A DNA stretch of 64,000 bases. Origin: Nereocystis luetkeana (Eukaryota > Sar > Phaeophyceae > Laminariales > Laminariaceae). The notes beneath the pieces were generated by a model. It was not told the DNA's origin, did no database searches, and worked only from the letters and a program-made list of their open reading frames with translations. This document shows positions 36,301-60,614 of the stretch, piece after piece; the first letter of the stretch is position 1, and each line of letters opens with the position of its first letter. The stretch spans positions 2,482,222-2,546,221 of the forward strand of contig JARUPZ010000037.1 in the NCBI GenBank assembly GCA_031213475.1. The letters run 5' to 3'. Made by a program: the position numbers and the translations under genes.

Positions 36301-39300
36301 TAACCGGAACCGTGACCCAAACGCCGGATTGATGGGGGAATGTTGGCTGTATGGAATGGACACTGGTTGTTGTGTGTACTCCCGGACATACTTTTATCGA
36401 AAGAATGTGTTTTTCTTTTGTCACTGATGCCACCGCCAACAGTATCCACATCCTTTGCAGCGTACGTTCGTAGCTTTTTTATTGTCCCGCGTTGCAGGTT
36501 GTGAGCGGGATGAGAGGGCCCGAGAATAGCAAGACACAGAATATCCCTTTTCCCGTCTGCCTGATATTTGTTTCGGAGTGAAGAAGCACACACGACACTA
36601 GCACGACATATTATAGAGATGATCAATTCCCACTTGATAGATGATCTAGAGCTTTCAGGGCTGATGGAATGCCTGATTTGTATGATCTGTATGATCTGTA
36701 TGATCTATCTAGCTCATCACGATGTTGGGTGAGAGCTGCATAACCTGCGTGATCTACAATGGCACATGTTTCCTGGGGTTGGATTGTGCTATATACATAT
36801 ATATCTTGCACAACGGCAGGCGAGGAACTAGATGATCTACAGCAGACAGATCAGATAGATCATGATATATCCCAGGTGCAAAATAGTGTGTTCTATCAAT
36901 CATCTCGTCGCAGCACCGACCGCCGCGTACGACAACGGCGGCTGCATTGTTTTTGAGGGTACGTCGAACCACCGATACACCAAACAGGGAGCAGGGGGGA
37001 TGGCTAAACACTGTCGTGGTGCTGGCGCGCGCGATTTTTCACGCGCTCCAAAGTGAACGGGGAGTGGCGAAGCTTAAGTTAGAGTTGGATCCTTTTTTGA
37101 AGAAATAAAAGTGGCCAACCTGCAACAGTAAAAATTCAAGGCTATTCGTTGTGCTGTTGTCGTACGTTTGTACGAGGTAATATATCAACACACGGTCAGT
37201 TCGAGTCGTGCTGTGCGTCCGTGCCCCACTCGCATTTACACTATTAATTACGTACAGCAGTTGACCGCCGAATAACTCCTCTTTTTCTAACGGCGCCTGC
37301 GACAAAACTTCCTTGGTGAAACGATCACAACACAACGTACATTTCTTGTACAGCAGTAGACGCTGTCGTGTACAGAGGCGTGGACCACGATATTGCCTGC
37401 TTAGACGAAGATACTCTACCCGAAGTAAACACGCATTATCCATAGTCGATGCGTCTTCATCTTCTGCCATTACCCCCCCCCCCCACGAGGCACCTCACGG
37501 CCCTTCGCGCTTGGTGCAATCAACGTTTGCCTGGTCGGTGAAAACCCGACGTGCTCCGTTCCAGTATTGAAGGGATGCAAGGGTCCATGGTCATACGACC
37601 ACGGCCATGCACAATATCGAGTACCCCCACCCCCCCTGCTCTTGCGAATTCACGGGTTTCGAGGAATCAGCTTTTCGTTTCCGGCGCCGTTTGCTTCGTT
37701 TTCCACCGACTCACAGTCGCTTGCACTCTGTGTTGTGTTTTTTGCGTGATATCGATGTCTCCGGCCGCGGGTTTGCCCTCCACTCCTCAGAATCATCACA
37801 ACCGACACCGCCGTCGCCCCCCACAACTTTGCTTCGCGCGGGATGAATAACGCCCTCTCGCAAGGTGCAGTAAGGCTGTCACCCGTGTGTTGCAGTCAGG
37901 CTATCACCCGGGTGGTCAGTCAGGCTATCGCTCGGGTGGTGCGATCAGGCTACCACCTGGGTGGTGCAGTGAGACTATTACCCGGGTCTTAATTATAGTT
38001 TTTTTTTCCAAGTGAGGTACAACTGTAACTCCTCTCCTGGGATCCACTTGGCGCTACTGGAGACGGAGACGGAGACCCGACCGGTTTATCGCGTACCTTA
38101 CCTCACGGCCCACCCCTTCCCGCCCCACACAAGCTCTGATGAACACGCAGAACGCGACTTACTGATCCTGCGGCTACTACTACAAGCTCTGCAGCTTGAA
38201 ACGTCACCGCTGTTGACGTACCTGGTACATATTATACCCTCCCAGCACGTTTCACGATATTTTATGCAATTCGGGTGCACTGGGGAACAACAACAAAGGG
38301 CAGAAAATATTATATACCCCGGAGCGCTGTTTTAGTTGCGAGGTCGATCGTGTAGAACGCGCGCACCTTATCGTCCTCCTTGCCCTTCGTAAAATTTCCC
38401 TCAAGAACAGCCAGGAGTAGATTAAGCGTGAAGAATGACCCCCACAGGATAAGGACGATGAAAAAAATGTCTCCGAGGATGGGCAGGCTGCAATCCTTGA
38501 CCTATCATGACAGCAGTGTTCCAATTGCGAAGGAAGAACGTGGGACTTATAATATAGGTGATATACTTACTCTTGACAAACTCGACTCGACTTCCACACG
38601 GCAGCAGTAAAACTTTCACTACAAAGTAAGGCAGGGGTCGAAGTACGCAGCGGGGGAAAAACACGATGGCGAACCGTGAGGCTATGCGTTTCTACGGGCG
38701 GATGGAGTTCTGTAATGGTACTGTAGACGGTGATGAAGTACAGCATAAGAGACGATCTCTACAGTATTAGGCAATCATGGACATTTTTTGCAGATTGCAG
38801 CGAGTTGCTGCACTATTACGGGGGACCATATTTAAAAGGGGACCTACGGTACACACAAAAACTTATACCAGGTATATTTCGCTATTTTTAGTAACAGTAT
38901 TTGGTCCTACCAGGTATTTACTATGGTCCCCCGTAATAGGTTTAATCCTCGATATCGTTGGTTGTAAAATGTGATCCTGAACAGGACAGCTCCGTACACG
39001 TTTTTCACCCATCCAAACTTAAATACTGCCGCCATCCATCCGCAATAAAACCAAACAAGTGGGCGCACCTGGTAGAGAATGTCCGACCACCCCTCCATGG
39101 TGATGCTCTGAAAAATCGACAAAAATGCAACAAATATGTTGTCAAACGTCGTGTAGCCCCAGTTCAGGCTCCTCACGAACGTCGCGTTAGCCACTAGCCT
39201 GTCCGCGTCCCACTCCACCCCCTCGATCACCCCTCCCGCGAATCGCGCGTTCCCCAGCGCGTCGTAGTTGCTACCGCACCATCTGAACTCACTAACGTTC

Positions 39301-40772: not shown

Positions 40773-42799
40773 CGGCTATTCCAGTGATCGGGCCCTTCAG
40801 CGCCGGTACTGCGCCTCGTACGAGGTAGATGAGCCACCGCACGTATCACTTCAGGGCTCTCTCTCTCTCCGGGTCAGCACGGTCCGGTGCATGACCGCTT
40901 CGCTTCCTTACCCGTGTGCACAGATCGTCGAAGAACCACACCGTCCGACGACGATATGGTAGTAGCAGCAGCAGCAGTAGCAGCAGAAGCAGGTAGCACC
41001 AGCAGTACGATTTCGACACAGCAATAAATACAGGACAGTAGTAGGCTCCCGCTTCCACCCGACGCAGCCTGTGAGTGTCAGAGGTGCACCTGGCCCGGCA
41101 TACGCTGCTCAGCCCGGCGGACTGATAGTCTGGCTCCGGGCCAACCCGCAGGACGCTCTACCACCACCTGGCTGACACCGCCTTACGCGACCCAACGTCT
41201 TTTGACCTCGCTCCTCGAGAGGAAAGCAAATGACGGTTTCGAAATTACGTTAATTTTCCTTTGGTTTATTTTCCGTCGGTATGACCGCCGCCGGTCGGTT
41301 TTAGAGTTTTTTAGGACAGGATTCGCGCACAGGAAGGATTACAGGATACAACACTGCAGAGCAGGATGAGTACCTGGTACAACTGCACAATGCCCTACCT
41401 GCTACGTATTTACGAGAAGAAAAACTCTGCAAAATATGATGTGTGTCTACCTGTCTGCACCAGCGTCCTATGAACGCCGTCTGCCCGAGGCGCGGCGAGA
41501 AAATACGTACAGCTGGTATGTATGTGCCCATGGCTTGAAATTTGCTTTCATCATGCCTTTCGTGTCTGTTGTGGACTGCAGTACTCGTCGTATTGGAAGG
41601 GCCACGGAAGGAGATAATAAGACGATCCTCATGTCTCCAGCATGGACAAACAACTTTAAAACGCTGATGTCTTCTATCGGTCCGGCCCTCGAGCAGCGTT
41701 CACCTCTTTCTGCCCAGCTTTCAATTTGTTGGGGAAGTGGAGCGCACACAACACGTATTCGTTTATTGCGATTACTATCCCAGTTTTGTCGCTGCGAGGC
41801 AGTAGTTCGTAACTAATCGGGTTTCGCCATTCCAAATCCTGGCGGTATCTACTACAATACGCGTACGAGCGTAAGCATGAATGCACGAGGTAGACGAGCG
41901 AAGCATGCATCGTGAATACAAGGCCCGTCAAGCCAAAACAATCGTAGCTGCAATCCGTTTCCAAGTTCAAACTGGTGTAGTTGCTGAAAACACCGTATGC
42001 GTACCCCGAAGAACACAACAATGATCGCAGATTATGTAATGATCGCAGATTGTGGAGCAATGTGATACTGGCAGCCTACGTACGAGGTGGATGTTCCGTG
42101 CTGTACTTCGCGCAGCCCTGTGCACTGGAAGAAAAAAAACACTACTGCTGTGCGTGTAATTCGAGTGCCTGTACAATACCTGGTACCAGGTACGCGATTA
42201 TTCATATATTGGAAAGGGTTTTCCAGCAGGGCGAGCGTCCCCACTTGCTGCATGCTGCAGTCCTCTTGACGTACGCGACAACACCCACTGATATTGACAG
42301 CAGTTGGTTGAACCCACACTTTTTCGTAAAACTTGATACAGCATCGGGCTGAAAAACGCATGTATGTGAACGGCTGCATCAAATGTTCGCATATGCGAGA
42401 AGGCGCACCAGCATATAAAGTGTGTTCATGCTGTTCATGCTGCAGACCAAATACTAGTATATGTGTACCTAAAGTACGCACATCACACAACAGCGCAGCT
42501 AATGCCTACGACAGAAGCGGATAAAACAGGAACAGCGCACAACTCAGACATATGACAGCAGCATCAGTATTTCCACCGGTTGACCCCATTCATATTTCCG
42601 TTCATATAAAACATAGAAATCTAAGCTTCGTTGCGCGCGACGTGGTGGTCTTCAACCCACCAGGTACCAGATACCGGTATCATACAACGACACGATCATC
42701 CACCCCCACGCAGCACATGACAACAACCGCAACGCACACCACGAGTATACATATACATGTTTAGCCGCGGGCGGCGTTTGCATCCAAACGGCGCCCCCA
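40773..42799. other. Intergenic region between the channel and NAD+ synthetase genes
   Basis: About 2 kb between two minus-strand genes: the synthetase 3' end and the channel 5' end. It holds an AGC triplet tract (about 40963-40995), several TACCTGGTA/TACCAGGTA motifs (41372, 42177-42191, 42661) and TACAGCAGTA-type motifs. No coding sequence recognised. The channel promoter should be here (inference); no core element is identifiable. Confidence 0.6.
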
Positions 42800-45700
42800 T
42801 CATGAAGACTTCTTAGCGTCTTTCGCCTGGCCCCCATCAATCCGACCGGGCGGCAAACCCTTCAGCATCGAATCAATAACCGCATACTGGCGCGGCCAGC
42901 GCGTGGGGTACAAAAACGGTCTCAGGTCGAAACGGTTGTCGTCCGGCGAGTACTCCTCGGCGTGGTACGACGGCGTCAGCGTGGTCATCTTGTGCCGGTT
43001 CACGGAGTAGAAAAAGAAGAACCGTTTCACTTTCGCGGCGATCTCCGCAGGAGATAGGTGCCTCCAGGCCGACAGCAGGTTCTGGAACATCGACACCGGG
43101 CCGCATCGAGCCACCTTCCTCAACCGCCCGAAGTGTGAGAGCTCCTCGTACGTCATCCCCATGTCCTCCTCGTCTACCTGGCTGTGCTCATCCGCCTCGT
43201 CCGCCCCCTCCGCGAGAGGCCGCAGCTCGGCGGTCGGCGGCGCGGCCGCGATCTCGGCCAGAGCAGGGTAGCCCCGTTCCCGGGCGGCCCACGCCAGGAG
43301 CCTCTTGAGGTCCACCTTCGAGATGCCGCCGATAGGGTTAAGGTCGGCGCTGCTGCAGTCATACTTGGTCATGTACCCCCTCAGTGCTTCGTCCACGTTA
43401 GCGCTGCCAAGCACCAGTAGGAACCCATGGCGCCCCCGAACCCAAGGAAGCAGCTGCGCGAGAAGGTAGGCCATGACCATGCGGAGGCGCGCCTGTATGT
43501 TCTGCAGCGCCAGGTCCTCGGCAGACGTCCCCCCCCTCGAGAGGAACTGCGGGGTCTTCCCGGTAAGAGCGCGAAAAACTCCGACCACCGCAGAAACCGC
43601 GGTGTCGATGGTGATGGTGCTGTGGTACGCACCGATCTGATCCGCAAGGGCCGCCGCGCGCCCCCGCGTGGCGCTCGAACTGTTCTCCGTCCCCATGAAG
43701 CACGTGTGCAAAACGCAGCTGGCGAGCTCTCGAGGGTCCGTAGGCACCTCCTGCTCCTCATTAAGCCCCATTAGTCGCCGTACCTCCTTGGTCACAGTCC
43801 CCGCCCCCGCTTTCGCGCCTTCCTGCCCGGTTGCTACTGAAGCAACAAGCTCCGCCTTTTCTGCGGCTGCTGCGTCGACGGCCAGCCCGCACATGACCCC
43901 CACGATGGCTGCGACGCTGGACGAGTCCGCCCCGCCCGACAGGGGGAGAAAAAATCCCGCGCTGCCAGACCTTCGCAAGTAGTCCCAGAGCCAGCAGGCG
44001 GGCCCAAGGGCGCACTCTTCCTCCGGGCTGTGCATTCGTAACGCTTGCGGCAGGGTTGGGGGGTGGGTGATGTAGTTGGCGCCGGGAGTCCCGAGGTAGA
44101 ACTGGGGCGCCTCCACGGTGGGCAGTCGCCGCGCGCCCGAGGCCTGCTCCATGCGAGAGCTAACAGACGCGCGGTAAGACCTCACGTCCTCTAGGTTCAC
44201 GGTTGCCGTGATTACTTCGACATCCTCGAGCGAGAATTGGGCCGCCTGTGCCACGACGTTGCCGTTGACGACGATGAGAGCGCAGCCGTCGTAGTAGAGC
44301 CGGCCCCCGTCACAGCCTCGCTGGTTGGAGTAGACGTACACGCCGCCGCACTTTGCCGTCGCCGATATCATGTAGCTCAGGCGGGTGTCGAGCTTACGAA
44401 GCTGGTGGTGGGAGCCCGACCCGTTCCCAATAATCTCTACCCCCGCCAATGTCTGGCCTATGTGCGGGCTGTCTGGCGTCCAAATCTCCTCGCAGGTCTC
44501 GCCCGCGATCAGGGCGTCGAGCGCCGAGATAGCCGCCTGGCCGAAAGGCACCTTGTCTTGCCCCGTCACCTCCGCGAGCCCCCTGCACAGGGTGTGGTCT
44601 TCCGTTTCGTTCCTGCGCTTCCACGTGGTGAACCAGCGAGTTTCTCGGTAGTTGCCGTCGTCGGCCAGGTGCAGCTTGGGGCGGATGGCGAGGATCTTGC
44701 GGTTCAGACAGAACACGCGGCAGTTGTACCGGACCCCGAGGTGCTGAACGGGCATGCCTATGTCGCAGAGGATGTCATCCGTCGCGTCACACTGAGAGCA
44801 GGAAGAGACGAGACGGTGTGACGGGGAACGCGAGGAAGTGAAACGCGTCAGACTTTACTTCAGTGTCATCGTACATATGACTGATCTTCGCAGGTCGTTC
44901 TGAAGATTGACAGATGGACATGCTTACTGCAGGATCTCTAACCTTCAACAGCTCCAGATAAAAACATAATAATATATATGCTTCTATCCCTCACTACTGC
45001 TACAGTGCGGACGACGTGTTCCGCGTGGGATCATCCTATCGCACGGCGAGGACTAGATATCAAAAACATACATGGATCTACTCAAGTACTGACAGCGGAG
45101 TGTGTCCGAAAACTAGGTACACATATATGAAAAAACAAAAAGAGGCAGTGCAGTACACAGAGTCCCTTTTCACAACTGGTTCGGAAGGATCTGCGAGGGT
45201 CCAGGTTGTCCACTCTTACGGACTAGGATTCACTTGCTGGGGGGACGGAGGCACGGGCGTATACCCAACCTAGACCCTAACCCCGACCCCAACCCGGAGT
45301 CAAAACGGGCAAAAACGGGCGAGAATCACGGCTGGGTAATTTCCACAACACGGTATATCGGGGGTGTTCAGCGCTACTTGCCGGTACAGGGTAAGCGCGC
45401 CACGGGATGCGCCGTATATCGGCTGATTTGGTCACGCAATAAGGTACGCCGGCTCTTAACTACCAGGTATTCAGGTAGATTTTCACCGTACTGTGACCTA
45501 GGGTTCACCGTTTTATGTCGTACAGAACGCAGACCTATACAATAGCTAGACGAAACAACATTATATGTCCTACTGGGCAACAACATACATATAACCAACA
45601 GAGCGCCGTCAGAGATCAAACGTCGTAACACACCATTTTTTCTAATTTCCGGAGCATGGCGCACGTTGGGCCCCTACTCGCCCCACCTCGCAGTCATATC

Positions 45701-48700
45701 GACTAACTCCAGGAACGGAACACGGAGTTGGAACACGCGGGCACGCTAACAACGTACCAGGTATACATGTATGCGTGTGCAGCAGTATGCAATCAGTACG
45801 TGTTATGTGAATATATATATATATATATATGCCAATAGTGGTACGCTGAACTATGTCAGAGTGGGGCCGGTATAGCGGACAAAGCAAAATAATACCACAA
45901 AAATAACAGGGCCACCACCCACACCCACGAAAACACCCTCCCATGTATCAGCCGACCCAACCCATCGATACACCCATCATATACTACAGCAGTGCAGCAG
46001 CATATGTACAGCAGTAGATATGTACCAAGCTCGTAGGTAGCAGCACCATGATCGAGAAGAGGAATCACCATGGTCCAAAAAACAGAACTCCAAACCACGG
46101 CCACCGCCCATAGTAGCTTGCCTACTCGCCCACCCACCCACCAATCAACCCATCCACCCACCCACCTACCCACCAACCATGTACTTCAGTACAGCAGTAT
46201 AAGTACAGCAGTAAATGCGTTTGGTTCATATCAAATTGTACTAGGATTTCCACTTTGTTATGATCCTCCGCCATGCCGGCGACGAAGCAAACCGTCATCA
46301 AGAGAACGCCTCTTCACAACGCCGAGTCGGGCATCGGCACCCGTTCTTTCGCCGGGGTCACCGAGGGCCGCTGTGTGTCGAGCGCGGCACGGTCGCGGGG
46401 GGTCCGGTGGCGCGCGGGAGAGCCGGTGCCCCGCGGGAATACTGCAATCGGTATAGTCGTGAAGATCCAAATGCGATATCACTACCACCATCATCACCAC
46501 ATAGCAGCAATACTTATACCCTTACTATTATATGCGACTACGTGTGTACGCTCTCCCTTCATTTACGGACAAAGGAGGGGTCAAGCACAACCCGTCGTGG
46601 CCCTTAGACGATCAGCCGCGCCAAGTCCCCAGATCGTTCTTCTCCTCAGGGTGCCCGCAACAAGCTATACACACCGACGCATCTAGATGGCCCGACTACA
46701 TCGCATGCTCTGATCTTCGACAGCAGGAGGTAGTGCTCTGCCGGTTGTATGTATGCATGTTGTTGCTCCGTGGAACGTAACGGGGTATGTTGCTGTCTTG
46801 TTCGCTTCTAAGATTGGTATGGGACGGTGGTCCCATAGCAGGTAATCTCTTTGTTCAGGTTCGGGTGTGAAGACACACCGAGGCTTGTGTGGCGTTATCA
46901 CACTCTCGGGGGGCAGCAAAACCAGCAGCCTCAGAGTGACCCTGCCGAGCGGACTGAATGGCCTCGAAGAATTACTGGGATAATGAGGCGGTGCGACCTA
47001 CGGAGTAGGACCTGGCGCTGTAGTGGTCTCTTTACAGTACCAGTAGAGTAGTGCCAGCTGCCAGCTATAGTGCCGGTGGAATCGCTGGCCACAGATGGGA
47101 TTAGCCAGTGTGGCAATGTGCTGAGTATTGCCGGTCGCCGCTATAGTGCCGGTATTGTTGCCTGGCCCATACCGGCATTATACTTGTAGAGGACCACTAC
47201 TCGTAATGTATCGACATTAACGGGGTTGGCGCGTTTATGTGCGCCGTAAAGCTGTGCACCCTAGGCCGTACGTAACACGGTGCTACCGACCTGAGTAGTT
47301 AGGAGCCGGTGTACCGTACGGGGTTGCGGCCAGATCACGGTACAGCGGTGCCCTTTTCAATGAGCGCTGCCGATAGAAGGTGCTTTCTGTGAGGGGCTTG
47401 CCCTTTACATGGCGCGTAACATCTACGGTATACCGTTTTATGGCGAACTAATCGCCGAGAATATTCCAGCATATTCCACGAGTTTCGAATTGAGGACACG
47501 ATTCGACCTGCCAGTCGGGAGTGATATTGTATTACCAGTGTTCGGGCCAGTTTTAACCATGGGCGTGTTTTAGTCGAACCTCTTTCGTTTTGAATCGAAT
47601 TCAATTGGATTCGGTTTGGTGGGAAAATACGAGTTTCGGTTCAACCTGTAACCCACGAATGGCTTTATTTTTTTAAAAATAAAATCGGAGTAACGCAGCA
47701 TGTCACACAACGTCCAGCTGAAAAACATCGACGAGAGTAGACGAGAGCGAAGGCATGCGAGTTCGCGTACGCACCGGCGCCAGCCTTTTTGTTTGGCGGC
47801 GCAGGCTAGGCAGCTATAACCGCCATTATTTTGCAGAGAAGCCACCACCCGGGTACAATGTGCTATGGTCTGTAGTCGTGGGCGCGGCTGTTGCCCCGGT
47901 CTTCATTCGTTGAGCTTCACGATTTATCACCTCAGTGGTAGTCTTCGAAAATGTCTAAACAGCGATGAATTGCATCGGGGATGTTGGCCCAGTGGGAACA
48001 TGCCATGCAGGTTATATGCAATCCTCACATTTGTATTCGATTCCAATATTCCAATGGATTCGGTTCGATTTGCCCCAGAAAAGTGTTTTGGGGCTTCTTT
48101 TGCATGCGAGTACGTATCGATCGGACCGACTTTCCCTCGCGCCGGATTACAAATGTATTCTTGGTGATTTATTTTCAGACCAATCAGAAGCAAATTCAAA
48201 TCGTTTCATACAAAAAGAGTCGAAATTAATCGAATACCTGGTAGACGAATAACCTCATAACCTCTCTTCGCGGTAGCGACCATCCCTGCTGTAACTATTA
48301 ATACTTGTATTAATAGGGAACAAACAGAGCAGTAGAGTCCTCCATATGGTAGAAACGTACCAGGTATGTGTATCGGTATAATCTCCATTAAAGCGGGAAA
48401 ACAAAACAGGACCGTGCTTGGCTCTCCTGATCCCATCCGGACCTGATTCCACCCGGATGTAATCCCATTTGGCACCCTGCTCCCACCCACCGGAGGCCGT
48501 GAGTGCGAAGCGCGAACCGTAAACGGTCAGAAATCGTCGAACGGTAAAAAATCGTCGGATGCAAAAAAAAGAAACCAGCGTCGCAACCCGAGAATTGAAC
48601 CCAGCGACGAAATCATGGTGCATGGTGCTGGGCACCATAGACCGCGAAGCTATATCCCCTCTCCGCCCCCCCACCCCCCCCACCCCGCCCACACCACCCA

Positions 48701-50404
48701 CCCCCCACCCCCTCCACGTTATTTTTGGGCTATTTTTAGTCGCAGTACGAACATACCTGTAGCTACGTACATACCTGGTGTACAGGAAATACTAGGAATA
48801 CTCCTCGGGAAAATTAATATATCTACCAAGTGGTGAACCCAGCTCACAAAACATGGGGAGTGGAGGCGGAGGGTGGAAGGCGATTTACGCTGCGGACGAC
48901 CGCTGTGCCAGTCTGCCTCTGGATAGGATCACGATAGCCGCGGGGCTTCCGGCGGAGGGCTATTTTCATTTCTGCATCTTGTGGGCAGTAGTGGTTGCCC
49001 CCATATAGTGGAGCTTCCCAAGGTAGGCTATTTACGCACTCTGATTGGCTCAGGGGTGTTTCGCAAGCGGTGCAACCACGGCTCCTTGTGGGTGGGAGCA
49101 GGGAGCAGGGTGCCACAGATAGATGCTGCCCAGCACCTGGGAGTGAAGTAAAGCAGCGAAATAAATTACTTCAGGCACTTCGTTTACTCGCATTATTTCG
49201 GGTTCAGGTACTGCGGATACTGCGAGTACTCGCAGTATTTCGGCCTTCAGTAATGATCATACTCCCAGTACTCGCAGTATTTTAGGCCGCCAGTGCTGCA
49301 ATACTGAAATATAAATATATATCCGACCCCGTTATTAGCTTCGCACCGGCATCAAGAGCATACGTACCTGGCCGAACTGCAGTACGAGTAGACTGCGAGT
49401 TCACCTACAAAGAGTAGTGCGTACGTAGCGTGTAAGCGGTGTAAGGTATCCTCCGCGCCTTCGCAAACAACACAGATACATGCCGGCCGGACGTATTGGG
49501 AGTGACTTGGATCCAACGCGTCGTCGGTCGTGAGTTATGATATACCTGGTACCTCATACGTCCTACCAGGTACCAGGTACCATCAAAAGTAGTGTGCAGC
49601 ATGCAGCGCGTATCATAGTGTCAGCCCCTGCTGGTGCTAGCGCCGGCTGCTGGAGCGGTCGGTAGAAGCATGTGTACCAGGTATGTACGACGTAAGAGCC
49701 CCCCGCAGTAACTATTATACTGCAAACGTCAACAGCAATAATGTCGGGGCAAGTCCTGCTGGGTGCCTTGAACGCATACGAAACGTGGAGCAAGCCGACG
49801 GCAGTTGCGTCCGATAAGGGATGAGCGGGGGTGGGGATACTGCTGGTAACTGGCGCGGCAGCTCTACGAGGGTTGCCGGTTGCAGGTGCGTACATTCGAG
49901 CGAGTTCGCAGCTCGACGTCTTTGGGGTAGACGCGGGGTGCTGCGGTTATGCAACCACTGCTGTGCGTCTGCTCTTCTGAAGTACGTGACCAATCTTGCT
50001 ACGTTGTACTTCTTATGCGTTTGTGTGCCAAGTCTACAGCAACAGCAGTAGTGCTACTGCTGTAGAACCCATCATCGAACAGGGAAAAATGCAACACCAC
50101 ACACTCTTCTAGCAACGTACGCCATTACACCACGTCCTATGCTACCCCACGTACTCACAGAAAGAAGAGCAGCGAGGCTTTGATCGCAGTGGAGGAAAGT
50201 GTCATGCTCTAAGAAGTGGTCTTCGCACCCGTATCCGCACAACTCCAGCTCAGGGCCCAGACGATATCTCGCCCCTAGAGCCTTCGCCTGCTTGATCGAG
50301 CGGAGCACTCTGTCGAGGTTTCCGTCGAAGTCTAAAGCCCATTGATCAAGATTACACGCCGCCACCGTGACCAGAGGCGTCCTCTCCAACATGGCGGTCT
50401 CCAT
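42800..50404 (-). CDS. NADSYN1: Glutamine-dependent NAD+ synthetase (glutaminase-synthetase fusion), two exons
   Basis: Exon 1 is 50404-50159 (82 codons) and exon 2 is 44791-42800 (663 codons plus stop). They are joined in phase 0 across a 5.4 kb GT-AG intron, giving 745 aa; the human enzyme is 706 aa. The junction [20 protein letters not shown] is collinear with the family. The N-terminal nitrilase-type glutaminase has the triad E52 ([10 protein letters not shown]), K121 (IRPKLHLA) and C182 (ETCEEIW), equivalent to human E45, K114 and C175. The C-terminal synthetase domain has the ATP pyrophosphatase loop [11 protein letters not shown], and later [12 protein letters not shown] and [12 protein letters not shown]. 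It amidates nicotinic acid adenine dinucleotide using glutamine and ATP, the last step of NAD+ synthesis, in the cytosol. Start ATG 50404 is chosen because it precedes the conserved [15 protein letters not shown] by about 10 residues; the frame stays open upstream with ATGs at 50446 and beyond. Confidence 0.96.
44792..50158 (-). other. Long (5.4 kb) intron of the NAD+ synthetase gene
   Basis: Bounded by TCT/GTGAGTAC at the 5' end and CTGCTCTCAG/TGTGAC at the 3' end. It contains a TATATA run (about 45811-45830), a CCACCCACC tract (46125-46175), C-rich 48664-48715, repeated TACTCGCAGTATT (about 49206-49280), CTATAGTGCCGG repeats (about 47065-47155) and several TACCAGGTA motifs with a dense cluster at 49543-49581. 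A GC-rich island at 46258-46440 is open on both strands, with no recognisable product. Confidence 0.85.
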
Positions 50405-50767
50405 GGCGCTCTGATGGGGAGTGTGTGTGATCAACAGCAGGTTCATGTCGACAATTCGAAATTTTTCGGAATTTTTCGAAAAAATTCCAGTGAGTTGGAC
50501 AGGACAAAGCCCCTTTGAACTAAGGCCTTCGAACACATATAAAGCCACTTGAACACAAAACGCGTAAAAACGTGATCACCACAATTTCTATTTTCCATCC
50601 CCAACCCTCTTCCGAAGCGTTGTAGACCTCTGACTTCCCAGGGATACCACGAAAGACCAAGCGTCTAGCTATCTCGCTGGGGAAGGTACCACATCGGACA
50701 AGCCTCGATCTGCTTCGTGGAAGAGCGTTCTGGGATATCCGATCCCGCTTCTGTGTCAAGTTGTCAG
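50405..50767. promoter_or_regulatory. Shared divergent upstream region of NAD+ synthetase and the ER J-protein
   Basis: The two start codons point away from each other, 363 bp apart, so both promoters and 5' UTRs must lie here. At 50454-50489 there is an AT-rich series of alternating TTC and GAA words (TTCGAAATTTTTCGG, then AATTTTTCGAA, then AAAATTCC) that resembles a degenerate heat-shock element, though the 5 bp spacing is not kept. No TATA box is clear. Confidence 0.45.
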
Positions 50768-52387
50768 ATGAAGCTACGGGTTCGACAATTCCTGTTGGCG
50801 GCTGCCTTTTTAGCTCAGGCGCTCCTCACGGAGGGCAAGGGGAAGAACTACTACAGCACCCTAGGGCTCAAGAAGAACGCTAAAGAGGCAGCCATCAAAA
50901 AGGCGTACAGGTGCGTCTGCTGTGGGCTCTACAGGCAGAGCTTGCCGGCTTTGTTGTCAGCTGTACTGCTGTACTCTCTTACAGGCTGCTCTGCTGTGTA
51001 TACTGGTGATTTTGTTTCCGATCACATTTTTCCGTGCGTCCTCTTGTTTTCAGCGGACGATCGACGAGCGACGCTTTCGACAGAGATATTCAACCGTCGC
51101 TCCACGAAAAGCCTGCGGTGCCTGGTTTCGAGCCTCAACTTCGAGCGTCGTTGCCGCTCCCCGACGTACTCATACTAAATTGTAACTTGGCATGAGGTGA
51201 AGAGTTACCAGCTCACCAGGCCCACTTTCCATCTCCGTCTTGCCTCAATTTCTCCATTTTCAAGACTTTTTCTGATGACGTGTTGTGAATTACACACGGA
51301 CGTCGCTGATTGGCCAACGTGTCTTTCACACATTTCAATCAATCAACCATTAATAATTCTTGTGTTTTTGTCTCATCGTAGCCGAGCGCGCTGCTGCTGA
51401 GAGCAAGCAGCACCGAGGAGCAACGAAAGCGCGCTGTCAAGCCCGCAGCTTGCGTGACACATCATATGTATGTTGTAGGCTTCCCGTGTATGGTGACGCT
51501 CTGGGCCAACCAACAGGACAGCGTGCCGGACACGAGTCCCCCCGACTCTATATTACCACTCGACATCCAACAGCAGCATTCGCTTCCAGTACCTGGTACG
51601 ACCTGTCCTGTACGATGAAGGCGGTTTTGATCTTTGACTCAGCATTTCTTTCTACAGTCCCGCGCGAGCCAGAGACCCAGCGATATTGCGGTTACTCCAG
51701 CAGCAGCAGTGTAATCGTCGTATTTTTTTGTAAGTAATGTTTCGCCCGGCGTCATGTTGTTTGTACCGAAAAATCATGTACCTGGTACGTCGTACGTAGC
51801 TGTCTGGAGCTGGGGAGACGAGAAATAGGTGACCGCGTTGCTGCGATAAAACACGGATGTGTATACGTAATATGCAGCATGTATCGAGCAGCACCGGTAT
51901 GTAGCTGGTCGTATTGCAAATCGCCTCCCCATATACTCAGTATTGTACTCAGTATACATACGGCAGTACTTGTCGCGCCTATTTTGGGTACATCGCTTAT
52001 TGGTTATTAGGCCAAGTATTATGGGAAATTTTTGAGACGTTATTTCTGTCTTTTTATTTTGTGAGTTTTCGGGCTACAGAAAAGTGTGGGTGAACATATA
52101 TAACGTGTATTATGGGTTCTGATTTTTAAAAGTGGTTTTGTATAGTATTGGTTGATCGTGGCTTCGTCTGAGGTGGGGTCCAACAGCTTGGCTTCGGCCT
52201 GTAGCATCTTCATCCAAGTTGATTTTCTGTAGTCTGGGCGTGGCTTGGCACGTCGCGAGCGTTTTACGGCAGGCGTCTCAGCGTCCTCCTCGTCGTTTTC
52301 AAACGTTGCGAAGGCAGCGGCGGCCGCGAGCGTGGTTTCAGCATCCAAACACGGGAGGATTAGCGCCGGCGACATCGAGTCGCCATC

Positions 52388-52436
<49 letters not shown>

Positions 52437-55400
52437 GTGCTGCTGTTGCTGCTGCTGCTGCTGGCGGTGCTGCTGCTGCTTCTGCTACTGCTGGTGCCGC
52501 TGTTGCAGCTGCTGCTGCCACCGCTAATATTGCTTCCATGTGAAGGAGAAGCCATCTCTCTTTACACAAGCGCCGTAGTTACCGCCCCCCGTCGGCTTGA
52601 TGCTTTCGCGTGGTGGGTGACGGGTGGCAGGAGCGCAGGTAGATAGGTGGGCTGGCAGTAGTAGTGAGATGTAGCACCCAAAATACGAAAAATCTCAGTT
52701 CTCAGAAATCAGCAAAACCTCTCAGAACTGAGCTCAGTTCTGAGAGGTTTTGCTGATTTTTGCCCCCTCCAGGAACTGAGATCAAAAATATCGATGATTT
52801 CCTGTCCCATAATAGATGGTTCTGATTTTTGGGCTTCGGAGATCGCTGAAAAAGCCAGAAATAACGTCTCAAAAATTTCCCATAATACTTGGCCTTACCA
52901 AACCCTTTCCCTTCGTTTCGCAACGATGCGTCGGAGATCAGCGCCCTACCTCCCGAACGCGTACGCATCTATATACCTGGTACATGTTACACAGCGTACG
53001 GCATGATGACAGGCACATCCTCGGACGAAGTTCAACGCCATGACTTCTCTCGACATTGGGGAAGGTGCATAGTGCGATAAAACCGAGTGATGCTTTGCGT
53101 CAACGTATGGAAATATCACGACGAAATATTTCCTGAGAGCCGCATTTTTCGTCGTGCGTGTCCGTGTGTACGCCCCCGTCTCTGCGTCCTCTGCGTTTGG
53201 AGAAACTCGGTTTGGAAATTCGTCCCTCCCTGGTGTGTGCTATCTTCTTACTCGCGTGATGCGGTACGCATATACGTCTACGTGGCGACTGATGCGTCCG
53301 TTTATATTACATATGCCCCCTCTGCTCTGCCAAACGTCAACCAATCAACCCGCCTCGCTTGCTGGCTGTCGGTGCTGAACGAGCAAACTCGACTTCCGGT
53401 TTTGTTGCACCGACATAACTTCCCACCACGGTCTGCCTGCCCCCCGACGCAGGAAGCTAGCGCTCAAGTACCACCCGGACAAGAACCAGGACAAGGTTGA
53501 GTGGGCCTCCAAAAAGTTCCAAGACGTGGCCGAAGCTTACGAAGTCCTATCCGACTCGGAAAAGCGCGGCATCTACGATCAGTATGGCGAGGAAGGACTC
53601 AAGCACGGCGCGGGCAACGGTGACGGTGGGGGCTTTCCCGGGGGCGGGGGCGGTGGGTTCGGTGGGGGTTTCCCCGGAGGCTTTCGTCAGGGCGGGGGCG
53701 GGGGTGGAACGAGGTTCCACTTCGAGGCCGGCGACGCCCAGAGGACATTCGAGGACTTTTTCGGGAAGGGCACTCCGGGAGGTGCGTTGGTGCGGAGCCG
53801 GCCTGTTCAGTGGCTGTATCGGCAGGGGCAGGGTTTGGTCCGCCACCCGCGTTTCCTCGGCTTCGTTCAGCGGTTGAAGCAGTTGTTCAGATGGCTCAGC
53901 GGTGTGCCCGAGTACTCATCGTCGTACGGGGGGCAGAAGCGCAAGCGGGATGATATGGGACAGGGTCGGGGGCAGAGTCGGGGGCAGGGTCGGACGCGAG
54001 GTGCGTCGTGAGTCACGAGCCTCAGTTGAAAAACCGCTTAGAGCCTGCAGTCCCATTGTCGAAACAAATCGCTTGGAACTATTCTATATTAATAGTCATA
54101 CCAGGTATGTCGGTTTCTGCACTATGCAATACTAAAGGGACTACAAGAGAGCGCCCGTTTTTTTTTTTTTTCCCATCACTGTAGTAGTATGTTCATGTTT
54201 TCACGAAAAAAAAAATGCCTGGTGGGTGTTACTACGGATCGTAGCGGTTGTCCGATGCTTCCCCCCACCTTTTATTCTGGGGCGTGTCTTTGAAGCCTGT
54301 AAACCGGGCCCACGACCGACTGCCCGTATGCTGGTGGAAGACGACGGCGAAAGAAGCATCTGTTCAACACCGCTGCGTTGAAGGCGGTACAGCCGCGTCG
54401 CCACTGCCTGCTGTTGTACGTACTCGGTGGTTTTGTTGGATCGTCCGGACCAATCTCCATCCACCCCACGCCTTCGTCTTGCTCGTGGTAGTACTTGCAT
54501 TCGAGGGCAATTAAGTTGGTTGACACCGCTTGCCTTGCCTTGCCTTGCTTTGCCCTGCCTTCCATCTGTCCTTTGTCACAGGCGGTGGTGGGGGTGGGAA
54601 CATGTTCGACGACTTCTTCGGCGGCGGCGGTGGGGGGGGTGGAGGGGGCGGCTTCGGGGGCGGTGGCGGCAGGAGAGCGCAGCCCCCCCCGGAAGACCTT
54701 TACCCCAAGGGTTCAGGTGTCAACAAATTGTCGGAGGCCAAGTTCCCCAAAAAGGGTTCCGCGCATGTTTGGCTGGTAAGTACTGCGGCACTGGCAGTTG
54801 TTTGCCCATCGCAGTAGTTACCAGTATTGCGTAAGGGCGTAAGACCAACTATTATGGGAGATTATTTATGGGCTCCAGGAAGTGAGTTTTTAGGCCGAAT
54901 ATACGGGTTTTACACGGCGGGACGGGCAAAGACACCGGTAGACTCCTCAGAATGCTCCCCGAAGTTTTCCAGAGAGCTGGCTTTCTTGGATGGTTTTCCG
55001 TTTCTCCGGAGCATCAGTTTGATTTTGGCGCAGCCAATCAGTTATTTCCAGAGGGTAAAAAAAACTTTCAAGATTTCAGGGGAAAAATCATTCATGTCCT
55101 CATAACTGGCAATATGGACGATCAGTCAAACTACGCTCTGGAGAAACGGAAAACTGCTCAAGAAAACTCTCAGAACACTAAAGGAGCATCCTGAGGGGTT
55201 TACCGGTGTTTTTGACCGTCCCGCCGAGTAAATCGCGGGTTTTCGGGGCAAGAAACGATTGTTAGAGCCCTTCAAAATTTTCCCGTATCAGTTTGTCTAG
55301 TATATGGAATCGTGTTCTCGTCGGTTCTCAAATCACATGCGGTTTTACATTTTTTGCTGTTTCGGTATTTTTGACTGGCCCCTGGTAAAAACGGCCTGCA

Positions 55401-58400
55401 TATCTACTAGAAACCCTTCTCGTATGTTTTACGACATGTAGAGTTCATTCGGTAGCTGTTGTTTTTTGCGATGCCGGTTTTTGCGAGTGGTTTCCATATT
55501 TGGTCGATTTGCGGTGTTACCGGTATGCCCGCTCTGAACTATGCGTGAATTGCGCATCCCTGGTCTGTAACAGGTATATATATATATATTATACCTACCT
55601 ACTGTAGTACCCTGGTATGTATTTGGTTTTCTTCCTGTGTACTGGCAAGAATCGTAGTCTTCCTTTTTCCCGTGTCTCTCGTACATACATGTTACGCGTT
55701 TCTTTAGTTTCATCTTGCCGACTGCCAACTGATGTACACTTGGAACTTGAGGCCTTGGTGTTACTTTTCTTCTTTCTCCCGTTATGGATGCTCGGAACAT
55801 ACCTATCTATATAACCCGCAGCTCGTGGATCGTTCTTGTTTGATCCCACAGCGGGCAGTAGTGCATCTTACTTAACCCCACCACAATCGCGCGCGTCTTC
55901 CTTGAAACCACAGCAGCAGCAGTGCGTTTTTCGTGACCGCGCAACGGCAGTACGAGTAGCGCCCTTTTCTTGGTTGAGCTGGGTGCGTGACAAATATGCA
56001 CATGTATATAATATGTACAGTCGTACGTACACGATTATTCAGCAGTAGCCGCCATCTTCAAGTGTCGAATAGAGCCGCGCCGACCAACAAGCCCTTTTTC
56101 TTCGCGGAATGACCCGCGACGCTTGCTCCGCGGTGTATCCACAAGTACATCGCATAATAGTCGTGACGGTTACCCACGATTTGTATTCTGTCTGCTTCCA
56201 AACCCTTCCTCAGCGGCTGGGGCGTGTCTGACGTCTACGGTACCTACCTACCCTCTTGTATTTGCCACGCGCCGCTTCGCCCGCTCCCTTATCTAAAACC
56301 GTCGTGCAAACGCAACAGGTCCACTTCTATTCGCCACGGAGCCGCGAGTGCAGCCAGCTGTCGCCGACCATGGAGAAGCTGGCGGAAGCCTTGCGCGGCG
56401 TCGCGAAGGTACGTGCGGGGTAGTTCGGTCTGTCGTGTGTACGAGGGGGGGGATCGAACGCGTGCTATGTACGTGGGCTGGCTGGGTTTTAGTTGTGGCA
56501 GTGTCGGCGCTCTTCCTTCGGCGGACGACGTGGCCCGAACCACGGCGCACGTCCGCTTACTTTTGCCCCTTGCCAGCTCTCTCGCTTCCACCGCTTCGGT
56601 TTCGCATAGTACTGGTTGCTGCGATTGCTTGCTTGTGGGGTGAAAAACGCGTTGAGGCGTGTTGTGGAACGTTGTGTCGTGGCGAAGAGCCGCCTGCGGC
56701 CGGAGGAAGCTGCTGCGACTATCACGGGGCACCATAGTGACTAGGACCAAATAGTGTTGTTATGATTAATAGTAGTAAATAGTAAAAATAACCAATTATA
56801 TACTGGTAGTTTTTTTGTGTATCGTAGGTCCTATAGGTCCTATTTAATATGGTCCCCCGTAATAATAGTGTTCGGCCGGTAGGCCGGTGCGCGTGTGTGA
56901 CATTCGGCGAAGCATTAGTGCTTTCACGGTCCTGTCCCCACCCACCGACCCACCCACGCACCCACCCTGGCGGGGTTGTGAACGTCGAGTTTCGAATTTT
57001 TACAGCAGAGGCGCCAAGGACCACGGGGTTGTTTTTTGTTTTTTTACAGTAGTTGTGATTTTTTTGTTCGTGTTTTGTTCGTGTTTTGTTTTGTTTGTTT
57101 GCCGCCGCACAGGTCGGAGCCGTGGACTGCTCCGGTAAGACAGAGCGGTTCTGTGTCAGCCAAGGGGTGCGGGAGTTCCCAGGAGTGGCCCTCGTGATGG
57201 ACGGCAAGGCGACCGCCTTCGACGGGAACACCGGTGAGTGTTTCTGTTTTTAGTGTTTTTGTTTCTTGCCTCTCGTCCCCCCCCCCCCCCCGTGTTGTTT
57301 TCAAGTCAGTTTTCGCCGTTTTGTTTCACGTGTATATTTTTTTCTCGCCCTCTTATTGGCGCCTGCTGTACGCTCGCGGTTTGCTCGCGGTTTTGCGCCC
57401 ACTACTTCGTAGTGCACCTACGAAAACCACCAACCGGATTCCATCGAGGATCAGAACTCGTGCGTTTTTTTTAATTGGTTTCGTGTCTCCCTTTTGTTTT
57501 TTTGTCAGATAACCCAATGCCTATCTGCGGCCGTAGAAACGGGTTTCGTTCAGATGTTGTTGTCGAGTTGCCTCCTGCTTGCACACGCCTGCGCTACGTA
57601 TGGCGTTACTGCTTTGCAATTGCAGAAGTAACGGCAGAGGCATAGAGATGCCTCCCATCGACGCTCCGCCATACCTCACGCCCCGCCATGCCCCTTGTTG
57701 TTTTGTTTTGTTTGTTCTGGTTTGGTTTCGGTTGTCATCCGTGGTGCAGACGCGAAGTCCCTTCATGAGTTTGTCCTGGAGAACCTGCCCGCGGAACACG
57801 TGGCCAACCTGCGCAGGAGAGATCAAGCCGACGCCTTTTTGGCGTCCGAATGCCGGGAGGATTCGGAGTGGGGCGTTTGCGGCGTCTTGTTTACCGACAA
57901 GTACGACACATCGGCGGCGCTTAAGGCCCTCTCCTTTCGATACCGTGCCAGGGTGAGACGCGCGCTCCGCGTGACCGGGAGTTGTGGTAGGGAGTAGGGG
58001 GTGGCGGTGGGGGTGGGGGGGGTCGTTCTCATTTCTTGCTTGCCTTAAGTCGTTTGACCATTGACCACGCATCCCTTTCGAGACGGAGCACCGTTCCTAC
58101 TCCAAATAGAGACACCTCCAACAATTGGGCGCTCGTGGCGGTGGGGGGGGGGGTTGTACTCTATAGGGGGGCGCGTGCTCATTTATTGTTTGCCCTGTGC
58201 CATTTTGCCATTGACCAAGCACCCCTGTGGAGAAGGAGTGGGGTGGTTTGGTGGCGACGGTTGTATGATTTAGTGCGCTTCCGTGTCGTGATGGGGCAAC
58301 AGCCAATACGGGTCGATTTTGTCACCATCTCTTTTGCTGTTTTACGCCCGTGTACGGCGCGGTGCGGTTGTGTGCCCCGGATATCTCATGTACTCATTTA

Positions 58401-60614
58401 TTTGTTTGTATTATCTTCCGGCGGATTGATACATGCATTTGTTTGTGTACTTCGGTGGATTGTTGAATGTAAAAAGTTAAGCCTACGTACCACGTTTCCG
58501 CTGTATCAGCCCACCTCGGCTGTGTATATCCTCGCCCAGCTGCGTTTTTGTGAGAGGTGCGCTGCTTATTAGCAGCCCTGGTGAACTTTCGTGGCAATTC
58601 ATGCCTGACGATACTCCGTGTTTTGCGCTCTGTTTGTTGTGGCCAGGTTGCGTTCGGCGAAGTGCGCGGGAAGAACGACGCGCTGGCGAACAGCTTCCAC
58701 ATCTCGTCGTACCCCCGCCTCGTCTTCTTCTGTGGCGGAGACGCCAGCGTATCGTTCCCCTACGAGGTGAGACCAATAGGCGTCAGTGCCTTTTACAGCC
58801 CCCTTGTAGGGAAACCCCGCGATGGGGAAAAAACCATACACCATTCTATGTTCGGATTTATAAGAACCGTCTGTATGTTGATATCCAATCGAAACCGTTC
58901 TTGTGTTTGTGGACAAAATGGCACCAGCACAAGGGGCATGAAAATTTCTGCGTTTTTTTTTATTTCTCCCCCAACACGGTAGTGCAGCCTTGTATGTAGT
59001 TGGGACCACAAACCTGACAAGCGACCCGACAGGGATTGACTGCACTGCTGTATATGCACATGATATTTTTTTCGAAGTGCTGTCGCGTGCCGTATACCTG
59101 GTACAGTTTACAGCCGAGCATTTATTTTAGTCCCTTCGTGTAGCGGTGGAAATCTGCCCCGTTTGCCGTGTTCACCGGGTACGATGGGTTGACGATGACG
59201 GCGTGACGGCCTTTCTTTGATGGCAGGGAGAGCTGAAGGCTGAGCCGCTCGACGCGTTCGTGAAAGGTCTGCGAGATGGCGCCAAGTGCAGGGAAGCCAC
59301 CCAGAAAAATGCTGAGGCTCGCCATCAAGGTGAGAGGAGGCACCGCCCCCGCTCCCGTCGCTGGAAGCGGAGAAGTGTTTTTTTTTTTTTTTTTTTCGGA
59401 GGGCAGAGTGTCGCGGGTTGCTCGCTCGTCGTCATGGTCGAAATACACGCCTTCGAAGCAACAACAAACTCTCAACTCCACTGTTTCCGTCCTGCCACCG
59501 ACTTATCGCAACGCCTGAGGTACACAAAAATATTTACGGTAGCGATTAGGAGGTGTATTTTTTTTAAAGCGCATAGTAGTACGGTAGTAGAGTACTCGTA
59601 GCCTATTGGCCTGTGTTGACAGGGGGGCATGTGGTCGACCAACTCTGTGTTTGTGGTGTGCGTGCGAGTGGCGGGCATGTTGCGCTTGTGAGCCACTGCT
59701 TCGACGGCGTGTTCTTGTTGTCCCGTTCCTAGCATCCAACTAACACCTGGCGCAGGCAGTATAGTAGCCGACCTCTATGTAAATATGTGCCTCTAATTCA
59801 TACGATCTCGGATAGATCCCGATCTACTGTAGATCATGATCTATAGATGATCTATACAGTATATCCTATGTTTGCCGTTGTGATCTGTCGTGGCAAGATC
59901 ATGACCTACACGCAGCAGATCCTATGGCTGCCGTTGTGATTTTTTATCCCACAGCCGTACCTGAATACAGTCCCGCCCGGCTATACACACGTGGGTAACA
60001 GCCGCGTCACACAGGTTCCGCCCGGAAAAGTAATGGTTCAGATCTCGCAGATCGTATACGCGTACCATGTGATTTCAGGAATCTACCAGTATCTGCCCAT
60101 ACACAGGTCCCGTCTGCCTGGCAAAGATGGCTTAGATCTTGTAGATCTTCTATGCGAGTTCAGGAACCTGCCAGTATCTGTCCATACAGATCCCCACGTG
60201 GGAAACATGATTTAGATCTTGCTGATCGTATGGCATTCAGCAGTAAATCTACCAGTGTCTTCCCCGAACGTTCTGCAGTAGGTTAAGAAGCAGGGACCTG
60301 GTCTGATCTCTTTCGATGTGTGCAGCTTAGTCTAACTGTTACACTGTTGTTGTTCTGTCTCCTTGCCCACCTCCCAACTCTCCCTCCCGCGTTCTTTCGT
60401 CCGTCGCACGACTTGCTCCTGGTGTCGTCGCCCCCGAATGTACGTGATGGCAGCCTCGATGTTGCGGCCGGACGACGATTTTTCCAAGATTCGCGTGAAG
60501 GCGCTCAGGGAGCTGCTGCTGGCGTTCGGCGACGCCTGCGAGGGCTGCGTTGAGAAACTCGACTTCGAGCGGGCGCTGCGAGGGCACGTGCTTACCGCGC
60601 AGGCGAATCGATGA
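50768..60614 (+). CDS. ER J-domain protein with two thioredoxin-like folds and a C-terminal MANF/ARMET-type SAP domain, nine exons
   Basis: Exons: 50768-50910, 53453-53781, 54582-54775, 56319-56408, 57113-57233, 57750-57952, 58647-58766, 59227-59329, 60454-60614. They sum to 1464 nt, all phases agree, and the product is 487 aa. Residues 1-23 are a signal peptide. Residues 27-90 are a J domain with HPD at 55-57, then a long Gly-rich region to about 195. From about 220 a thioredoxin fold begins ([13 protein letters not shown]), but its active site is SREC (230-233), without the first Cys of CxxC. A second thioredoxin-like region with [10 protein letters not shown] covers about 300-415. The last exon ([19 protein letters not shown]) matches the SAP-like C-domain of MANF, with CEGC at 463-466. 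In the ER lumen it would recruit BiP through the J domain. There is no KDEL-type signal. Start ATG 50768 is the first ATG with a signal peptide behind it. Confidence 0.9.
52040..52555 (-). pseudogene. Truncated Harbinger-type transposase N-terminal fragment
   Basis: The 171-codon minus-strand frame has a Ser/Asn homopolymer N-terminus encoded by CTG triplets, then [35 protein letters not shown]. This pattern (D-Y-x-x-S-x-W ... ML ... DP-x-S-x-EA) resembles the region before the RFRVPF-type block in HARBI1-like nucleases, as I recall the family. After that the frame turns into non-homologous sequence and ends, so no DDE catalytic domain is present. Family call is tentative. Confidence 0.45.
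52386..52520 (+). repeat. CTG triplet repeat tract inside the Harbinger-like element
   Basis: About 135 bp of CTG triplets interrupted by TTG, GTG, GCG and TTC triplets. On the minus strand it encodes Ser/Asn runs, on other frames Leu or Cys runs. Confidence 0.9.
52706..52759. repeat. 54 bp perfect palindrome
   Basis: The sequence is its own reverse complement, centred on GAGCTC between 52732 and 52733, with arms beginning AAATCAGCAAAACCTCTCAG. It lies inside the Harbinger-like element. It has no loop and could extrude as a cruciform or mark a nested footprint. Confidence 0.85.
56720..56864. mobile_element. MITE family A, copy 5 (J-protein intron 4)
   Basis: The ends read TATCACGGGGCACCATAGTG and TTAATATGGTCCCCCGTAATA. 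The interior is longer than in other copies (about 145 bp), with AATAGT repeats and a duplicated TAGGTCCTA near the right end. Confidence 0.75.
59800..60260. repeat. GATC-rich palindromic repeat region, locus 3 (J-protein intron 8)
   Basis: GATCTACTGTAGATCATGATC, CTATAGATGATCTATACAG and repeated TTAGATCTTGTAGATC pieces alternate with CAGGAATCTACCAGTATCTG-type pieces that recur about every 80-90 bp (60079, 60163, 60240), so part of it is a tandem array. Confidence 0.55.

Follow-up and report, generated by a model that had tools for sequence, protein, structure and literature searches.

The window analyzed here, a 64,000-nucleotide stretch of Nereocystis luetkeana DNA, contains a nine-exon gene on its forward strand between positions 50768 and 60614 (Table 1). 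A preliminary description had joined these nine exons in phase, and this gene model was borne out. The exon coordinates agreed, all eight introns between the exons begin with GT and end with AG (8/8), and the spliced open reading frame of 1,464 nt encodes 487 amino acids with a single stop at its end.

Table 1. Exons of the gene and the protein features that they encode.
Feature	Position	Strand
Exon 1: predicted signal peptide (most hydrophobic at aa 8-20), first part of the J domain	50768..50910	+
Exon 2: remainder of the J domain with HPD, Gly/Phe-rich linker with FEDFFG	53453..53781	+
HPD motif (aa 55-57)	53472..53480	+
Exon 3: Gly-rich linker with MFDDFFGG, first part of thioredoxin domain 1	54582..54775	+
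Exon 4: thioredoxin domain 1, active-site position S-R-E-C	56319..56408	+
Exon 5: thioredoxin domain 1, REFPGVAL	57113..57233	+
Exon 6: last part of thioredoxin domain 1, first part of the second thioredoxin-like region (no CxxC)	57750..57952	+
Exon 7: second thioredoxin-like region (sub-threshold), SSYPRLVFF	58647..58766	+
Exon 8: end of the second thioredoxin-like region and linker	59227..59329	+
Exon 9: MANF/ARMET C-terminal SAP domain and stop; phase-1 intron upstream	60454..60614	+

Coding signal was scored by codon log-odds, with parts of four long exons from neighboring genes as the training set and six of the gene's eight introns as the background. The in-phase frame was the best of the three forward frames in all nine exons and the best of all six frames in eight of them. 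The exception was exon 8, which had the lowest in-phase score of the nine (0.12, versus 0.22 on the reverse strand), and exon 3 won narrowly among frames (0.19 versus 0.14). Exon 9 scored 0.49; among 2,000 windows of 53 codons without a stop, sampled from those six introns, the 99th percentile was 0.46 and the highest value 0.55. That exon 8 is spliced to exon 9 is predicted from the intron phase, the splice signals, and the logic of the domain order. Exon 2 has a second in-phase donor at 54000/54001, the use of which would add 73 amino acids and yield a product of 560. Of the three frames of the added stretch, the in-phase one is the only one that is open and has the best score, 0.05. This value exceeds the intron mean (-0.49) but stays under the 95th percentile (0.15) of 1,000 stop-free windows of 72 codons. 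A Pfam search with these 73 amino acids returned no match. The longer form is thus possible, being neither supported nor excluded by these scores, and the shorter form is adopted here.

The start of the protein resembles a signal peptide. This prediction comes from hydrophobicity: the most hydrophobic 13-residue stretch has a Kyte-Doolittle value of 2.3, the next one outside the start reaches 1.5, and no other hydrophobic stretch is of comparable length. A Pfam search of the whole protein gave seven matches, with DnaJ, Thioredoxin, and ARMET_C each above their curated cut-offs. DnaJ matched amino acids 27 to 90 (88.2 bits against a cut-off of 27.8, E 3.8e-25), in agreement with the HPD-containing J domain placed at about 27-90 in the preliminary description. 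The J domain and the Gly/Phe region together also match DNAJB6 in a PDB search (aa 27-164, 1.1e-27). Two thioredoxin-like regions had likewise been proposed, and here the outcome was mixed. The first was confirmed by the Pfam Thioredoxin match (52.2 bits over two stretches, best 209-301), while the second, at about 310-430, gave sub-threshold matches only (best PDB E 0.0047; Pfam E 0.0083), so that a second thioredoxin domain there is plausible.

The active-site position of thioredoxin domain 1, which we placed using the canonical motif FYAPWCGHC, reads S-R-E-C instead of CxxC, and REFPGVAL in exon 5 presumably marks the cis-Pro position of the fold. The second region contains no CxxC in its sequence. 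Because the thioredoxin site is SREC and lacks a CxxC, dithiol redox chemistry of the ERdj5 kind is unlikely. In the PDB, the whole chain matches ERdj5/DNAJC10 best (1.7e-57; this score adds the alignment of the J domain to those of thioredoxin domain 1 with each of several ERdj5 domains). Together with the clear first thioredoxin domain, this match would suit an ERdj5-like disulfide reductase or isomerase whose SAP tail is incidental, but we consider that reading very unlikely given that neither thioredoxin region has a CxxC, the only one in the protein being the CEGC of its SAP domain. The protein is therefore probably not an ERdj5-type reductase, as judged from these motifs.

The last exon had been described as a MANF/ARMET-type SAP domain, with the profile search named in advance as a possible refutation, and that search came out positive. 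ARMET_C matched amino acids 442 to 472 in the whole protein at 31.3 bits and matched exon 9 alone at 36.2 bits (E 4.1e-9), both above the curated cut-off of 23.5, and the SAP motif CEGC lies at amino acids 463 to 466. When exon 9 was searched against the PDB (E up to 10), eight of the nine distinct sequences returned were named MANF, ARMET, or CDNF, with 6h9u as the best match (E 1.1e-5). The ninth, 2rqy, is named a putative uncharacterized protein, and its matched stretch is near-identical to that of MANF. ARMET_N, the saposin-like half of MANF, is absent from the seven Pfam matches of the fusion protein, and because of this the protein, by its domain content, carries a MANF-type SAP domain yet is not a MANF. 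Relatives of exon 9 were also sought in viral contigs (48 pattern matches) and in bacterial and archaeal genome contigs (588), and a scan with a three-row SAP alignment was run against the same kinds of contig (24 and 72 pattern matches, respectively); in neither search was any match confirmed at E up to 1e-3.

To place this exon in its genome, ARMET_C was searched in six frames against the 465-Mb assembly. Seven candidates were scored and two matched at E up to 0.001, which makes a chance ARMET_C match very unlikely. One of the two is exon 9, and the other, stronger match lies on contig C19. The ARMET_N search produced three candidates, of which two matched at E up to 1, both on C19 and one of them above the cut-off. 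The C19 gene, read over three exons that exclude the first, signal-peptide exon, is a MANF with both ARMET_N (1.2e-14) and ARMET_C (3.9e-13), and its C terminus is EHLEL. Since the ARMET_N matches are confined to C19, in this separate MANF gene, it is unlikely that exon 9 is a fragment from another MANF. An HSP70 family search of the same genome scored 53 of 383 candidates, and all 53, on different contigs, scored equally. On one of these contigs, L006, dnaK sits between open reading frames that by eye are groEL on one side and thiG on the other, an arrangement like that of red-lineage plastids and one that supports an algal source; because this contig looks plastid-like, the HSP70 search appears not to have reached BiP.

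We also weighed whether exon 9 lies outside this mRNA, as part of another transcript or of a misassembled locus. The reading frame is open upstream of the splice acceptor and ATG codons are present in it, which would fit a separate transcript. Phase and splice signals fit the join to exon 8, however, and exon 9 by itself would have no signal peptide. The restriction of ARMET_N to C19 also speaks against a separate transcript, as does the form of the exon. In the fusion gene as in the host MANF gene, one exon, the last (161 nt and 155 nt, respectively), encodes the SAP domain and is preceded by an intron in phase 1. We therefore give little credence to a separate exon 9. The same likeness bears on where the exon came from. 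Eleven codons separate the junction from the conserved [LI]RVK in the fusion and 12 do so in host MANF, and because both SAP exons are terminal, in phase 1, and similar in length and in this spacing, exon shuffling is suggested as the origin of the SAP exon, with the qualification that agreement in phase by itself is expected by chance one time in three.

MANF residues are numbered here on a human MANF sequence. That sequence has the right letter at all six residues named in the excerpted text of PMC6358605 (R23, D119, R133, E136, K138, and E153). In our alignments, MANF R133, K138, and E153 correspond to R448, R453, and E468 of the fusion protein; the first and last are identical, K138 is conservatively replaced by arginine, and the position of E136 is alanine. 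R23 has no counterpart, as the SAPLIP domain is absent from the fusion protein. The excerpt of PMC6358605 reports that the isolated SAP domain of MANF associates with BiP when ADP, though not when ATP, is present, and that it inhibits the release of ADP. In the same excerpt, binding by the R133E and E153A mutants was too weak for a fit and neither showed activity in the ADP-release assay, whereas binding by K138A could still be fitted (PMC6358605). The partner residues on BiP named in that paper are N200, T203, E217, D238, and N239.

The conservation is not uniform, and it is possible in principle that the SAP domain is vestigial or has taken another partner, with BiP engagement lost. Over BLAST-aligned stretches, the fusion SAP domain is identical to human MANF at 15/34 positions and to host MANF at 14/30, compared to 21/40 between host and human MANF. 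By these alignments, it has diverged further from human MANF than host MANF has, and on the same identities the SAP exon would be a copy that is not recent, or one that has evolved faster. The loss of E136 points in the same direction, and so, as weak evidence, does a single-sequence AlphaFold2 prediction of exon 9, run without an alignment, which gave one helix over residues 5-50 instead of the SAP fold (pLDDT 89.4 for the best model and between 63.3 and 77.1 for the remaining four; pTM 0.52). Against loss of function, R133 and E153 are conserved, the K138 change is conservative, and the coding signal of exon 9 is intact. On balance, a domain that no longer engages BiP seems quite improbable to us.

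The usual role of a J domain is to trigger the ER chaperone BiP, and that of a MANF-type domain is to keep BiP bound to its client. The preliminary description had inferred that one chain could do both, stimulating BiP through its J domain and tuning the nucleotide cycle through its SAP domain, and that inference is strengthened, at the level of sequence, because the BiP-contact residues are conserved. We propose that the protein would be a soluble BiP co-chaperone of the ER lumen in which the J domain loads BiP and the SAP domain then slows ADP release, a reading whose chances we judge to be evenly balanced. By analogy with its family, and with its HPD present, the J domain should stimulate ATP hydrolysis by BiP, so that BiP would be loaded onto a client. 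Holding or presenting this client, without dithiol chemistry, may fall to the thioredoxin-fold modules together with the Gly-rich linker. The SAP domain, if it follows MANF in holding the ADP state, would bind the nucleotide-binding domain (NBD) of BiP in that state and slow ADP release, and the client complex would be prolonged as a result, giving loading and then holding within one chain. The J and SAP modules would either take turns on a single BiP or engage two BiP molecules. One of these two arrangements probably applies, because the surface that MANF engages on BiP is also predicted as a contact for J-domain proteins (PMC6358605, excerpt). Sequential action would be favored, given this shared predicted surface and the preference of the SAP domain for the ADP state, with reach supplied by the long Gly-rich linker.

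The SAP domain could also serve only as a tether, retaining a J protein that lacks KDEL in the ER through BiP without itself altering the nucleotide cycle. The fusion chain ends in AQANR and has no KDEL-type C terminus, whereas host MANF has its EHLEL end. Half-maximal binding of MANF or its SAP domain to the BiP NBD, at 10-15 uM according to the excerpt of PMC6358605, would also be compatible with tethering. The two residues kept in the fusion, R133 and E153, are nonetheless those whose mutation cost MANF its inhibition of ADP release as well as its binding (PMC6358605, excerpt), and we regard a pure tether as unlikely. Returning to a co-chaperone that loads and then holds, we suggest more tentatively, and with doubt slightly outweighing belief, the fuller proposal that a single co-chaperone would start the BiP cycle, with its J domain triggering hydrolysis, and also stall it, with its SAP domain capturing the ADP state in cis, that the dwell time of the client on BiP is set by one chain, and that the SAP exon was shuffled in from a MANF gene.

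Judged by its domains, the fusion is of the J-PDI kind with a MANF-type SAP domain added, and comparisons with known systems show how it departs from each. It resembles MANF and CDNF in the sequence of its last exon, in CxxC spacing, and in two of the three named BiP contacts, the third being conservative, but it lacks the SAPLIP/ARMET_N domain and an EHLEL-type end and is joined to J and thioredoxin domains. ERdj5/DNAJC10 has six thioredoxin domains and a KDEL end. Like ERdj5, the fusion has an N-terminal J domain followed by thioredoxin domains; unlike ERdj5, it has one clear and one weak thioredoxin domain, no CxxC in them, a SAP tail, and no KDEL. To our knowledge, Hip and yeast Sec72 carry no J domain in the same chain. 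These two proteins are nucleotide exchange inhibitors of Hsp70, and the fusion would share with them a slowing of ADP release and longer client binding, although their TPR domains bind the NBD surface opposite that of MANF (PMC6358605, excerpt). Four of the thioredoxin domains of ERdj5 are active, and J-thioredoxin (J-a) proteins, which share with the fusion a J domain joined to a thioredoxin domain, are known from green algae and protozoa, including CrDNJ of Chlamydomonas and proteins of Ostreococcus, Micromonas, Paramecium, and Cryptosporidium (PMC3017771, excerpt). CrDNJ differs from the fusion in that the excerpt of PMC3017771 describes it with a single active thioredoxin domain and does not mention a SAP or ARMET part.

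Among the literature matches listed, no title or abstract opening named a J-thioredoxin-ARMET protein, although absence there is not proof. The excerpted MANF study gives no information on how the inhibitor is integrated with the known J-domain co-chaperones of the ER, and its authors speculated that SAPLIP contacts with clients or co-regulators (J proteins or exchange factors) may direct MANF to specific BiP-client complexes (PMC6358605). A natural chain carrying both a J domain and a MANF SAP domain, if confirmed, would be genomic evidence for the joint use of both activities. Such a pairing may offer a natural way into how the two controls on BiP are coordinated, and the fusion would be a ready construct for asking in which order they act and whether they compete for the surface of BiP that both are predicted to use.

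Two introns of the J-thioredoxin-ARMET_C gene contain inverted repeats. Those in intron 1 enclose an open frame on the minus strand (52040-52561) with no Pfam match at E values up to 0.01, and the element is probably a small DNA transposon; the nested repeats of intron 3 perhaps represent a foldback element.

Upstream, the CN_hydrolase and NAD_synthase exons are read as a putative glutamine-dependent NAD synthetase gene. Its first CN_hydrolase match starts near 50368, and roughly 400 bases separate this point from the initiation codon of the J-thioredoxin-ARMET_C gene, which lies on the opposite strand. The tRNA-Arg call overlaps the CN_hydrolase open reading frame, an Rfam search of the window returned no match at the gathering threshold, and the call is probably false. 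By its domain matches, the Ion_trans gene is read as a predicted ion channel of the voltage-gated type.

Elsewhere in the same assembly, contig C19 carries a stand-alone MANF gene, with its two ARMET domains spread across three exons that do not include the signal-peptide exon, and its product ends in EHLEL. The assembly also yielded 53 Hsp70 matches, all with one score, in 638-aa open frames across 53 contigs. The only one of these contigs examined, L006, looks like plastid DNA, judging from groEL, dnaK and thiG (gene names assigned by eye), and many plastid contigs seem to be present in the assembly.

Features in the window and on contig C19
Feature	Location	Strand	Details
47-nt inverted repeats around 793 nt	52009-52895		Intron 1; repeat identity 98%
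Nested inverted repeats of 64 nt and 31 nt, imperfect	54895-55246		Intron 3; 83-84%
CN_hydrolase and NAD_synthase exons	42800-50575	-	Pfam matches
tRNA-Arg call	50059-50151	-	ARAGORN
Ion_trans exons	27751-40775	-	Pfam, 2 ORFs tested
Stand-alone MANF gene	3977-7928 of L003 (contig C19)	-	ARMET_N and ARMET_C matches
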